Part shown: piece after piece, positions 39,969-45,464 of the stretch
How the letters are laid out: each line of letters starts with the position of its first letter
Numbering within the stretch: position 1 is the stretch's first letter
Assembly (NCBI GenBank): GCA_030841105.1
Contig: JAVEDE010000125.1
Span: 62,001 to 126,000, forward strand
DNA from: Pyrinomonadaceae bacterium
Lineage (GTDB): Bacteria; Acidobacteriota; Blastocatellia; Pyrinomonadales; Pyrinomonadaceae
Direction of reading: 5' to 3'
DNA: 64,000 nt
The notes under the pieces: generated by a model
Told to the model about the DNA's origin: nothing
Database searches by the model: none
Seen by the model: the letters and a program-made list of their open reading frames with translations, nothing else
Position numbers and translations under genes: made by a program

Positions 39969-40304
39969 AAATGACGATTTCACGGTGTTAATTCATACTT
40001 TCACACTGCAAATTGATACTTTCACCATGCAGATCCATAGTTTCGCAGTGTAAATTGATACTTTCGCGCTGCAAATTTGAACTTTCGCGGTGCAGATTCA
40101 TAGTTTCACTCTGCAAATTCATACTTTCGCGGTGTAAATTTGCAGTTTCACTCTGCGGATTTGAACTTTCGCTTTGTAAATTGATACTTTCGCCCTGCGG
40201 ATTTGAACTTTCACACTGCAAAAAGACCCTTCCGCGCTGTGGATTCGTAATTTCGCGCTGCAAGTTCACCCTTTCGCCTTGCTGAAAGACACTCTCGCCC
40301 TCGC
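39969..40304. repeat. 16 tandem 21-bp units (minisatellite) between dacB and dapF
   Basis: Sixteen consecutive 21-bp units without a single insertion or deletion. Each has a fixed core ACTTTC(G/A)C-N2-3-TG(C/T)(A/G) and a variable half around (A/G)ATTnAnA. The 21-bp period keeps frames open on both strands, giving heptapeptide patterns (LILSRCK on plus, ESINLQ on minus). No ribosome site or initiation context supports a protein, so this is listed as DNA/RNA repeat. dapF follows 26 bp later. Confidence 0.92.
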
Positions 40305-41612: not shown

Positions 41613-42239
41613 ATGCTGAATTCCCTCTTGAGGGGGGGCGCTGTGCTCACAGCCGCGCTCCTTCTGTGTTCTTTGACTTTTTACTCCCAGACGTTAGTCG
41701 CAGGAAACAGGTTGGCCTCCACGGATTCTACGGAGACGACAGACGGCCGGACGGTCATCCAAGTCACCCACGAAAGCGGCACGCTTTCCGGCGCGCTCGC
41801 GGCGGCCATGCCCGTCATCGCCGTCGCCGGAGTCTCGAAAGCGGCCGAAGCCCTTGCGACCACCGCCGCGCCCGCCTTGTCTGCGAACGCGAAGACTGAG
41901 GCCGACGACGCCGACGCCACCAACTCGCCCGCATCGGTGCAGAGGTTCATGGCAACGGCCTACGCGCTGCCGGGACGCACCGCCAGCGGCCACGCGGTAC
42001 GCCGCGGCCTGATCGCCGCCGACCACTCGCTCCCGCTCGGCACGCGCGTCCGTCTCGACGCCGGAAGCTATAGCGGCGAATATCTGGTGGCCGACCGCGG
42101 CGGAAGAGTTCGCGGCCGACTCATAGACATCTGGGTTCCAAGCAACGGCGAGGCCATCCGCTTCGGACGCCGCCCCGTCAAGCTGACCATCCTCAGTTAC
42201 GGCGCAAAGAAAGCCAAACGCGCCCGCAAACTTGGCTGA
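41613..42239 (+). CDS. Exported 3D-domain (RlpA/MltA-like) cell-wall protein
   Basis: 208 aa from the ATG at 41613 (AGGAGA 11 bp upstream; an upstream frame covers the leader and is rejected). Signal/membrane segment LTAALLLCSLTFYSQTLVAG. The C-terminal ~90 residues form a 3D domain (FMATAYALPGRTASG, HSLPLGTRVRLDAG, YLVADRGGRVRGRLIDIWVP), a double-psi barrel named for its Asp residues and related to lytic transglycosylases. It would act on peptidoglycan glycans in the periplasm. Terminator follows at 42277. Confidence 0.85.
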   Translation: MLNSLLRGGAVLTAALLLCSLTFYSQTLVAGNRLASTDSTETTDGRTVIQVTHESGTLSGALAAAMPVIAVAGVSKAAEALATTAAPALSANAKTEADDADATNSPASVQRFMATAYALPGRTASGHAVRRGLIAADHSLPLGTRVRLDAGSYSGEYLVADRGGRVRGRLIDIWVPSNGEAIRFGRRPVKLTILSYGAKKAKRARKLG

Positions 42240-42276
42240 GCATAGGTCGAATTAACAATCGGGTAACAATCAACAG

Positions 42277-42307
42277 AAGGCCGCCGTCGTAACTGACGGC
42301 GGCCTTT
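42277..42307 (+). terminator. Intrinsic terminator of the 3D-domain gene
   Basis: 12-bp perfect stem AAGGCCGCCGTC with loop GTAACT, then TTTAAACTTT. 38 bp past the stop. Confidence 0.85.
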
Positions 42308-42436
42308 AAACTTTACCGCGCCGCCCAAGCCGGGGCGAGAGGCTTGCGGCGCGCGGCGGGGCGCGGTTAAGATGCGTCGCACCAAACAGCAATCAAAATT
42401 TGAAGGCCGAACGCAGAGGCACACCGCCCAACCGAG

Positions 42437-43519
42437 ATGGAAGACGCCCGGAATACCTTGACACCCACCGCCCCGCCCGTCGAAAAAAAACTGACGCCCG
42501 CGCCGCTCGTCGAAGTTACGCGCGGCTCGATTACCGAATCGCGCCACCACGGCCACGTCGTCGCGGTTGACGGCGACGGGCAGGTCGTCGCCTCGCTCGG
42601 CTCGCCCGAACTCGTCACCTACCTGCGTTCGTCGGCCAAGCCGCTGCAAGCCGTCCCGCTCGTCGCGTCGGGCGCGGCCGACCGTTTCAACTTCACCCCG
42701 CAGGAGATCGCCGTCGCCTGCGGCTCGCACAGCGGCGAACCGCTCCACGAAGAGACGGTGGCCGCGATGCTCGCTAAGACCGGACTCGGCGCGGGCGCGC
42801 TCAAGTGCGGCGTCCACGAACCGTTCAGCCCGGAGGCGACGCGCGAGTTGCGGCGGCGCGGCGAGAAGCCGCGCGTCTTGCAGAACAACTGCTCCGGCAA
42901 GCACACGGGGATGCTCGCCCTCGCCTTGCACCTCGGCGGCGCGACCGCGACTTACGACCAAGCCGACAACCCCGCCCAACTCGCCATCGCACGCACCGTC
43001 TCACAATTTTCCGGCGTGCCCGCCGCAGACGTTGCGGTCGGCATTGACGGTTGCGGCGTGCCGGTCTTCGGCGTCCCGGTGCGCGCGATGGCCTTGATGT
43101 ACGCTCGTCTCGTCGCGCCGCCCGACAATTTCGACGCGGACGCGCGCGCCGCCTCCGCGCGCATCGTCGCGGCGATGCGGGCGCACCCGGAACTCGTCGG
43201 CGGCACGCGCGAGCGACTCGACACGGAGTTGATGCGCGCCGCCGGTGGTGTCATCTCGAAGGTTGGCGCGGAAGGCGTCTACACGGTGGGCGTCGAGCCT
43301 TCGGCGCGCTGGCCGCGCGGCCTCGGCCTCGCGCTCAAGATCGAGGACGGCGAAGACAGGCGCGCCCGCCCGACGGTCGTCATCGAATCGCTCAGACAAC
43401 TCGGCGTGCTCGACGACGACGCGCTCGCACGCCTCGCCCCTTACGCGAAGTTCGTCGTGCGCAATCACCGGGGCGACGAAGTGGGCGAAGTTCGCCCCGC
43501 CTTCGAGTTGGAACGGTAA
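42437..43519 (+). CDS. L-asparaginase II family protein (COG4448 type)
   Basis: 360 aa. The family's signature order is present: VEVTRGSITESRHHGHVVAV, YLRSSAKPLQAVPLVASGAA, VACGSHSGEPLHEETVAAML and QNNCSGKHTGMLALA. This group (PF06089, Rhizobium AsnA-like) hydrolyses L-asparagine and is unrelated to the E. coli enzyme. Cytoplasmic, no signal peptide. Monocistronic. Confidence 0.93.
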   Translation: MEDARNTLTPTAPPVEKKLTPAPLVEVTRGSITESRHHGHVVAVDGDGQVVASLGSPELVTYLRSSAKPLQAVPLVASGAADRFNFTPQEIAVACGSHSGEPLHEETVAAMLAKTGLGAGALKCGVHEPFSPEATRELRRRGEKPRVLQNNCSGKHTGMLALALHLGGATATYDQADNPAQLAIARTVSQFSGVPAADVAVGIDGCGVPVFGVPVRAMALMYARLVAPPDNFDADARAASARIVAAMRAHPELVGGTRERLDTELMRAAGGVISKVGAEGVYTVGVEPSARWPRGLGLALKIEDGEDRRARPTVVIESLRQLGVLDDDALARLAPYAKFVVRNHRGDEVGEVRPAFELER

Positions 43520-43837
43520 AAAAAGTGTGGTCGGGCGAAAGTTTTTCGAGGGATGAGAAAGCCGCTAAGCGGGCATATTTCGCGTGATTGCGAATTGAAA
43601 TAATTCAGGCGTACACAGGGGAAGTATAAAAACCGTGCAGATTTTCGGTTGAGGAATATCGGCGTGGTTTGCGTGCGCGCGGGGCGGGAAACTTCGAGTC
43701 CCCATTTTTACTGACGAAATTTTGGATTTCAAAAGTAGGCCGCAGGCGAGAGGATTTGTGGCATGGCCGTTGCCAAGAGTAAGAACAGTTAATATTGATA
43801 ATTGAGTAAATAGTGTTATCGGGTCAGCTCGGAGACG
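43520..43837. other. Intergenic 5' flank of the G-loop RNA
   Basis: 318 bp. Small hairpins (GAAATTTTGGATTTC at 43716-43730; GGCATGGCCGTTGCC at 43761-43775). An AT-rich TTAATATTGATAATTGAG (43789-43806) is the most promoter-like patch before the RNA. No protein gene. Confidence 0.45.
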
Positions 43838-44090
43838 GCAGTGAGTGATAGCTTTGGGGGAGGCTTTCTCTCACTTCATGTCGGTGGCGGTTCTTTGGGG
43901 GAACGGAACTGTTGCGGGCAAGCGGTCGAAGAGCTTTAGTTGCTGGGTTGCTGGTCACCGTCTGTAGTGCTTTGGGGGAACGCTACAGGCAGTCCAGCAA
44001 CCCGCAAACTTTCGTCAAGGGGATAACACGGCGAAGTGCTTTAAGTAAAAAAGCGCGGTGAGTGTTGGGGGATACTCGCCGCGCTTTTTT
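43838..44090 (+). ncRNA. Candidate small RNA with four G-rich hairpin loops
   Basis: About 250 nt ending in a strong terminator. Four hairpins share the loop word (CTT)TGGGGGA: H1 AGTGAG/CTCACT (43840-43875); H2 GTTC/GAAC (43890-43909); H3, an 8-bp stem CTGTAGTG/CGCTACAG (43962-43988) nested in a perfect 10-bp stem GGGTTGCTGG/CCAGCAACCC (43945-43954/43994-44003); H4 the terminator. No open frame fits. Repeated GGA-containing loops on stems recall CsrA-sponge RNAs such as CsrB, but sequence identity to a known family is not recognised. Confidence 0.6.
44051..44090 (+). terminator. Intrinsic terminator of the G-loop RNA
   Basis: 13-bp stem (AAGCGCGGTGAGT with 3' arm ACTCGCCGCGCTT), loop GTTGGGGGAT, then six T. 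The loop carries the same TTGGGGGA as the upstream hairpins. Confidence 0.88.
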
Positions 44091-44155
44091 ACGTCTACTT
44101 TACGTCTACCGGACACCTGCGGCCTCACGACCGCGCCACAACCTCGCACGCCTGC

Positions 44156-45337
44156 TTACCCGGCTTTATCTCCGTGTCCGATCAAACGCGCAGAGTTGTT
44201 CTGCGCGCTGATCTCGTCAATGTTGAGACGCACCATGCCGCCCGCGTCCGAGAACTTCTCGCTGAACGCGGCCTGCGCGCGGCGGCGCGTGAAAATCCAA
44301 CCGCCGAAGACGCCGCCGATGGCGAGACAGATGAGGATCGCGATGCCCGTCGCCTTCACCGTGTTGACGATAACGCTCGTGGACATGTTCAGCCACGCGC
44401 GATTTGCGCGGCCGACGGCAAAAGGGTCTTCGCCGAGCCAGCGCACGTCCTTCTCATACTTCACCTTATCAATCAACGCGGCGGCCGTCGCTTCGTCCGG
44501 CGCGTCGAAGACGAAGACGGCGTAGTTGCCCACGCGCCGGTAGGCGGAAGGCGCGGGCTTGCCCTCGCCGCGCAACTGAGCGACGCGCGCGTTGATGCGC
44601 GTGTCGGCGTCGGTGGCAAGTTGCGGCGTCGCGTACTCGACGATGACCAGATGCCCGGCCTGTTTGTAGCTTGCCGACACCGCCTCCGTGCCGCCCGCGA
44701 AAGAGACCGCATCGAGCACGGGACGGTTGCCCGCGATCTGCTGCAACTGATCGTAACTGACGGCGTAAGCGGCCTCCGTCTGCGCCGTCTCCCAGTCGGG
44801 CAGGTGCTTGACGAGGACGGGAATCTCGCCCGAACCCGCGTCCAGAGTTTCGGCGATCATGTTGGCGAGTGGAGCAGCCCTGCCTTTCTCCACCCCCAAG
44901 TCGCCGTTGAGGAGCGCAAAAGTTGTTCCTTTATAAAAAGCGACCGTCTGCAACGTGCAAAAAACCGCGCCCCCTATGTTGTTTAACTTAATAACCCGCC
45001 CGCCGCGCTGATCGCCGACGGCTTGAAGACGCCATTTTGTGAGGAGCGCGAAAGCCGCCGAATCCGAGTTGGTCTTCACCAACGTGACGAAAATTTTTTC
45101 ATTGTCAGGCGAGATGTAAAGGCGTGAGGCGGCGGAGAGCACACTCCGGTCTTCAACCAAAGCAGCTTTATCACGCGTCGCTACCGCCTGGCTCGCGCCT
45201 TGCGCGCGAAACTCGCCGAGCCGATTCGGCAAAAACTGCGCGGCCTCTTTGGTCGTTACCTCGGCCAGTGTCGGAGTCAGCAGGAGCAACAGGAGCGAGC
45301 AACCCGCGAAGAGTTTAGAGAAAAGTGAGACACGCAT
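44156..45337 (-). CDS. Exported DUF6599-like protein with C-terminal membrane anchor
   Basis: 393 aa from the ATG at 45337 (AAGGA 7 bp upstream). Signal peptide MRVSLFSKLFAGCSLLLLLL. Periplasmic body of ~300 residues (FLPNRLGEFRAQGASQAVAT, LPDWETAQTEAAYAVSYDQL) resembles DUF6599 proteins of Acidobacteriota. A membrane helix at ~340-360 (ATGIAILICLAIGGVFGGWI) is followed by a cytoplasmic RRRAQ tail. Function unknown. Confidence 0.72.
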   Translation of the reverse strand: MRVSLFSKLFAGCSLLLLLLTPTLAEVTTKEAAQFLPNRLGEFRAQGASQAVATRDKAALVEDRSVLSAASRLYISPDNEKIFVTLVKTNSDSAAFALLTKWRLQAVGDQRGGRVIKLNNIGGAVFCTLQTVAFYKGTTFALLNGDLGVEKGRAAPLANMIAETLDAGSGEIPVLVKHLPDWETAQTEAAYAVSYDQLQQIAGNRPVLDAVSFAGGTEAVSASYKQAGHLVIVEYATPQLATDADTRINARVAQLRGEGKPAPSAYRRVGNYAVFVFDAPDEATAAALIDKVKYEKDVRWLGEDPFAVGRANRAWLNMSTSVIVNTVKATGIAILICLAIGGVFGGWIFTRRRAQAAFSEKFSDAGGMVRLNIDEISAQNNSARLIGHGDKAG

Positions 45338-45464
45338 TGAAAATTCCTTCAACTGATGAAACGGCGAAATAACACGCGACCGGCGACACCGAGTTTGATG
45401 CCCGCCCTAATGCGCTCGTTGTGTTGAGGTTAATAGTAACCGCCGGGGCTGTTTTAGTTCCAGT

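Follow-up and report, generated by a model that had tools for sequence, protein, structure and literature searches.

The window, the whole 64-kb stretch of Pyrinomonadaceae DNA that was analysed, carries an RNA element between two protein-coding genes. One, on the element's own strand, encodes L-asparaginase II; the other, on the opposite flank, is a convergent gene for an uncharacterised protein, whose product gave no match in a Pfam search. The features of the locus, in window coordinates, are listed here.

42437–43519, same strand as the RNA element: L-asparaginase II gene
43589–43606, + strand: palindromic upstream element, consensus GCGAGCGATTATCGTTC, from an EM motif search
43759–43773, + strand: sigma-54 promoter (−24/−12) TGGCATGGCCGTTGC, pattern GGYAY-N5-TTGC
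43785–44095, + strand: predicted transcript of about 310 nt, its start placed 12 nt past the −12 element and its end at the terminator
43810–43830, + strand: 5′ leader (A)UCGGGUCAGGCUC, conserved in the alignment, and 5′ side of closing helix P1
43834–43839, + strand: 5′ side of closing helix P2, which pairs with 43922–43927 and encloses hairpins 1 and 2
43840–43875, + strand: hairpin 1, loop UUGGGGGA at 43854–43861
43885–43914, + strand: hairpin 2, loop at 43895–43902, UU(C)GGGGGA in relatives
43940–44007, + strand: hairpin 3, a two-part stem with a perfect 10-bp outer helix, loop UUGGGGGA at 43972–43979
44045–44092, + strand: intrinsic terminator, from a terminator scan, loop UUGGGGGA at 44065–44072
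44156–45352, convergent: gene for an uncharacterised protein

Elsewhere in the window, positions 39988–40285 hold short tandem-repeat DNA just upstream of a 300-aa ORF; both of its strands read as repetitive ORFs, with units such as SSNPQ/INLQ.

The RNA element spans 43827–44011 plus the terminator, and its four hairpins carry the UUGGGGGA loop. Word counts, folding and the terminator scan bear out the original prediction of four successive hairpins, terminator included, with nearly the same G-rich loop. The word TTTGGGGGA occurs three times in the window (0.3 expected), every time inside the element. Four of the five occurrences of TTGGGGGA lie within the element (43854, 43895, 43972 and 44065); each is a hairpin loop, the fourth being that of the terminator. 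The fold of the plus strand reaches −133.4 kcal/mol, compared with −98.2 for shuffles (z = −7.3). In 1.6 Mb from two relatives, a stem of at least 5 bp closes 5 of 25 TTGGGGGA words, as against 23 of 4033 permuted words. Repeated G-loop hairpins at this locus exceed chance, and the unit common to them is most accurately given as the octaloop UUGGGGGA. That one loop sits on stems unrelated to each other suggests that it is the loop that is recognized.

The RNA is confined to one bacterial family. All results were computed from sequence, and most of the genomes are metagenome assemblies. A covariance model (R1), built on 34 distinct copies, matches in 45 of 119 Pyrinomonadaceae genomes, representing 17 of 29 genera, and found the RNA in none of 43 other Blastocatellia genomes. 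A DNA search gave matches in 21 of 60 relatives, all inside the family. A strict two-hairpin pattern, run over 84,980 species, recovered 31 stretches, each with a title naming Pyrinomonadaceae, Blastocatellia or Acidobacteria/Acidobacteriota; it was absent from viral contigs, and a phage origin was rejected. Second copies are found in five genomes (G008, G014, G016, G020 and G026). The convergent downstream gene adjoins the RNA in 37 fetched loci, a set that includes duplicates of the same contigs; the upstream gene in this set is the asparaginase gene, and in other genera a different one. An Rfam search gave no match at the gathering cut-off, only chance-level matches at E up to 5, and a search of the accessible literature found no earlier report of such an RNA.

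The stems of the RNA turn over while its octaloops stay near-fixed. In the alignment, 39 of 51 pairs show two-sided changes (24 in shuffles, 20–24 when the pairing is slid), and 84% of cells are paired, compared with 36–44% in the slid controls. Further occurrences of tandem loops in other genomes and covariation of the stems had been proposed as checks of the original prediction, and an Rfam match as its refutation; the searches and the alignment come out in its favour on each point, as does the literature on its claim of a new RNA element. The possibility that a repeat element, a coding region or hairpins formed by chance pass for a functional RNA is refuted for the main locus: the neighbourhood is conserved in dozens of loci, the stems covary, the promoter is conserved upstream of the copies, and the alignment contains 1-nt indels that break any reading frame. 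What favours such an origin comes from outside the main locus, where isolated octaloop hairpins occur and one short same-loop hairpin (L164, G002:C40:671678-671720) is present as an intergenic, repeat-like tandem copy. The RNA itself is well supported: a conserved, structured and previously undescribed regulatory RNA found among soil bacteria of a single acidobacterial family.

Individual parts of the RNA differ in how strictly they are kept. Helix P1 pairs 43827–43830 with 43931–43934, and 94% of its cells are paired; P2 shows two-sided changes in all six of its pairs. The loop of hairpin 1 with its flanks (CUUUGGGGGAGG) is invariant across the 34 aligned sequences, and its stem covaries. Two-sided changes affect 6 of 9 pairs in hairpin 2, despite misalignment of this helix by MAFFT, and its loop takes UU(C/U/G)GGGGA forms. 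The outer helix of hairpin 3 has such changes in 11 of 14 pairs; the loop is U(U/A)GGGGGA with one exception, and UAGGGGGA in one genus. The perfect 10-bp stem in which one hairpin had been said to nest is indeed present, formed by 43945–43954 with 43994–44003 around hairpin 3. An additional outer helix between the leader and the 3′ side of hairpin 3 was rejected: mismatched pairs do equally well in 606 of 10000 permutations, so that it does not stand out from them. The terminator hairpin scores 24.7 bits with the octaloop model, and its octaloop is kept in some species only (e.g. L001, L002 and L012). Most copies have three octaloops, the copy in the window four; variants lack hairpin 2 (L017) or hairpin 3 (L032). 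As the terminator is near-symmetrical, it may also serve the convergent gene.

Upstream of the RNA stands a sigma-54 promoter. Its GGYAY-N5-TTGC box is exact in 36 of 37 distinct copies and has one mismatch in the remaining copy; the spacing between the box and hairpin 1 downstream of it is near-fixed at about 90 nt. Relatives show an exact match roughly once in every 94 kb of strand, so that 0.015 would be expected by chance. From the positions of promoter and terminator, the transcript probably starts near 43785 and measures about 310 nt. A start at 43838 had been proposed: the structured RNA is real, and its beginning probably lies further upstream. The upstream element is strongly conserved: it attained an EM motif score of 209 across 38 upstream regions (49–55 for shuffles), and in most loci its best site falls at −147 to −175 relative to the −24 box (about 170 bp). 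In a 0.8-Mb sample of genome G011, the best site is the RNA's own copy, and other sigma-54-like promoters there lack the element. The element is likely to be an enhancer site for a sigma-54 activator. A −24/−12 box, a distal activator-like site and RpoN in the genome, the general marks of a sigma-54-dependent regulatory RNA, are all present here. RpoN is found in 35 of 37 family genomes, including those that lack the RNA, so sigma-54 alone does not account for the distribution of the RNA. As a separate observation, a sigma-54 box lies upstream of a pilin-like gene (G011:C15 near 100015), which suggests that sigma-54 also drives pilus genes in Pyrinomonadaceae.

Other RNAs carry the same octaloop. 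Beyond the main RNA, more octaloop hairpins came up with R2, a small hairpin model; background matches of similar score also come from coding sequence and from genomes that lack the RNA, so no single match is proof. The recurring architecture of a set of short 'class II' RNAs (L160, L162, L167, L169, L170 and L173) is the stronger argument. These consist of a conserved promoter region (GCAA-N-TGCAACC), a small hairpin and a terminator with the UUGGGGGA loop; one of them, L162, belongs to the window's own genome, outside the window (G000:C70, about 42170–42360 of the contig). No common neighbouring genes were seen among the six. Two-hairpin octaloop RNAs occur in genus g11 (L166 and L168), and RNAs with one octaloop linked to sigma-54 were found at three loci (L092, L093 and L094). 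L093 (G008:C213) and L094 (G014:C137) are homologous RNAs that combine a sigma-54-like box with a single octaloop, the one of hairpin-3 type. A divergent one-loop homologue (L175, G023:C8 near 720672) has the same promoter and leader, with UAGGGGGA at its terminator hairpin. In two genera, genes for secreted proteins have as their leader a degenerate relative of the RNA, driven by sigma-54 (L092, G014:C200; L234, G002:C76); these proteins form a paralogous family with the motif GTPVLW and no Pfam match. The original prediction had recognized the core element; the sigma-54 promoter and the element upstream of it, the helices closing the multibranch structure and these additional same-loop RNAs had escaped it.

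Repeated hairpin loops suggest an RNA that displays binding sites. The loops end in GGA, as would suit a CsrB/RsmZ-type decoy of CsrA, yet in the alignment the conserved unit is the entire octaloop UUGGGGGA. CsrA (PF02599) is present in 3 of 37 genomes, none of them RNA-bearing by DNA search and covariance model. The DNA search for the main RNA was negative in these three family members; one of them, G023, has the one-loop relative L175 and does carry CsrA. A decoy of CsrA is refuted here, barring an unrecognized CsrA homologue, by the lack of CsrA in every RNA-bearing genome of the set. The analogy drawn earlier with CsrB/RsmZ holds for the general form, repeated binding sites; CsrA as the partner does not, PF02599 being missing from the RNA-bearing genomes tested.

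The preferred reading is a regulatory RNA, induced through sigma-54 and its activator, whose octaloops are presented to a single trans-acting partner (an RNA-binding protein, most likely); the probability of this reading is put at a little under one half. A stand-alone RNA made on demand would act as follows. (i) A sigma-54 activator would bind the upstream element and switch on the −24/−12 promoter. (ii) RNA polymerase would then make the transcript of about 310 nt. (iii) The predicted fold of this transcript comprises a closed domain of two hairpins, a third hairpin that is long, and the terminator. (iv) Three hairpins, here four, would display the same octaloop. (v) One trans-acting partner would bind the octaloops; this is probably an RNA-binding protein, though not CsrA. 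(vi) The RNA would titrate this partner, as CrcZ does Hfq and RsmZ does RsmA. The several copies and kinds of octaloop RNA (second copies, one-loop relatives and short RNAs) count for titration. Protein titration also predicts similar hairpins in mRNAs near start codons. Against it counts that a single such site was seen (L171, in G011), absent from the list that this octaloop search gave for G035, a member of the same genus.

Base pairing is the main competitor, possible and rated below protein titration. The RNA would be a multi-seed antisense sRNA, its UUGGGGGA loops pairing with UCCCCC(A) near translation starts and blocking initiation, a mirror image of sX13, which provides a published precedent (PMC3771888); 36 of the 37 genomes encode Hfq. 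Over 1.6 Mb from G002 and G011, with gene starts from a simple purpose-made gene caller, TCCCCC occurs six times within 14 nt before a start codon, compared with four for five permutations together, and TCCCCCA occurs four times, far above permutations per genomic occurrence; this 14-nt interval was chosen post hoc, with the data already seen. Across 24 RNA-bearing genomes, the pattern GGAG..TCCCCC..ATG gave 80 matches against 16 for a backward control, yet the permuted word CTCCCC gave 78 in the fresh genomes (all counts summed by hand), leaving about a 1.4-fold excess after correction for genomic frequencies (230:310). Striking in the discovery set, the signal for TCCCCC between Shine–Dalgarno sequence and start codon is weak on fresh genomes; such as it is, it counts against titration and favours base pairing. 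The full 8-nt complement TCCCCCAA is not enriched upstream of genes, their starts again taken from the purpose-made caller, and no conserved target emerged that forms a perfect complement of the invariant word in hairpin 1: 20 genomes held only 4 non-self sites, close to the number for the reversed-pattern control; both results count for titration over pairing. Candidate sites are not kept in orthologues, as with L209 and L210 and with hfq. The GTPVLW family was rejected as a conserved target, its site being gone in the closest relative; two members have the sigma-54 octaloop-RNA relative as leader instead. Likewise rejected was hfq, with a site in G011 only. Separately, most RNA-bearing genomes have a longer open frame for Hfq (99 aa or more) than RNA-lacking ones, where it is mostly 77–93 aa, a difference that probably reflects phylogeny, possibly co-evolution, and shows nothing alone.

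An improbable third reading has the RNA act, by neither titration nor pairing, through a fixed tertiary structure, for example contacts between loops, a G-quadruplex formed by the G5 loops, or a fold that binds a ligand or is catalytic. The closed multibranch architecture with covarying helices and the four G5 tracts of the window's copy would suit it. Most copies, however, have three loops, and variants with two (L017 and L032) or one (L093, L094 and L175) keep the sigma-54-type promoter, so a set of four G tracts is not needed.

Little seems to be known of regulatory RNAs in Acidobacteriota, where the literature search gave nothing on such a class. A conserved, covarying RNA with invariant loops and a dedicated sigma-54 promoter offers an entry point: the octaloop could be used as bait for the partner, and the RNA as a readout of the sigma-54 signal. 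A protein partner would be a new CsrA-like global regulator; an RNA partner would make the element a G-rich mirror of the C-rich-loop sRNAs. More speculative, and rather unlikely as it stands, is an undescribed post-transcriptional network built on UUGGGGGA octaloops, in which one global RNA-binding regulator, parallel to CsrA and unrelated to it, would be controlled by a number of decoy RNAs: one driven by sigma-54 and equipped with its own enhancer, and the short terminator-hairpin RNAs driven by sigma-70-like promoters.

Known systems share single aspects of this design. CrcZ and CrcY of Pseudomonas are RpoN-dependent RNAs of several hundred nucleotides with repeated binding motifs, functionally redundant paralogues that titrate a global regulator (PMC8395346). 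The octaloop RNA resembles them in its sigma-54 promoter; it differs in displaying G-rich octaloops rather than A-rich Hfq-binding motifs, in its taxa and in having no Rfam match. Multiple A-rich Hfq distal-face motifs were not found, the sole A-run in the window's copy being the terminator stem. RsmY, RsmZ and CsrB likewise present one motif on several hairpins, common to several RNAs (PMC8395346); here the loop is UUGGGGGA, the RNA-bearing genomes are without CsrA, and Rfam gives no match. In sX13 of Xanthomonas, three C-rich loops repress mRNAs with G-rich motifs (PMC3771888). Three stems with near-identical homopolymer-type apical loops are shared with sX13 and similar C-rich-loop sRNAs, whereas the base is the complementary one (G5 here, C4–C5 there) and targets here are only candidates. 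For Pxr of Myxococcus, the accessible text gives a predicted sigma-54 promoter with an upstream enhancer region, three stem-loops and restriction to one lineage (PMC5684412), in all of which it is similar; a repeated loop is not part of that text, and Pxr is set apart by description, not by sequence. The octaloop RNA is a member of none of the CrcZ, sX13, Pxr and CsrB/RsmZ classes, as loop word, partner genes and Rfam all differ. By analogy, it would work most like CrcZ, as an RpoN-driven decoy, or as a mirror of sX13, with repeated loop seeds.
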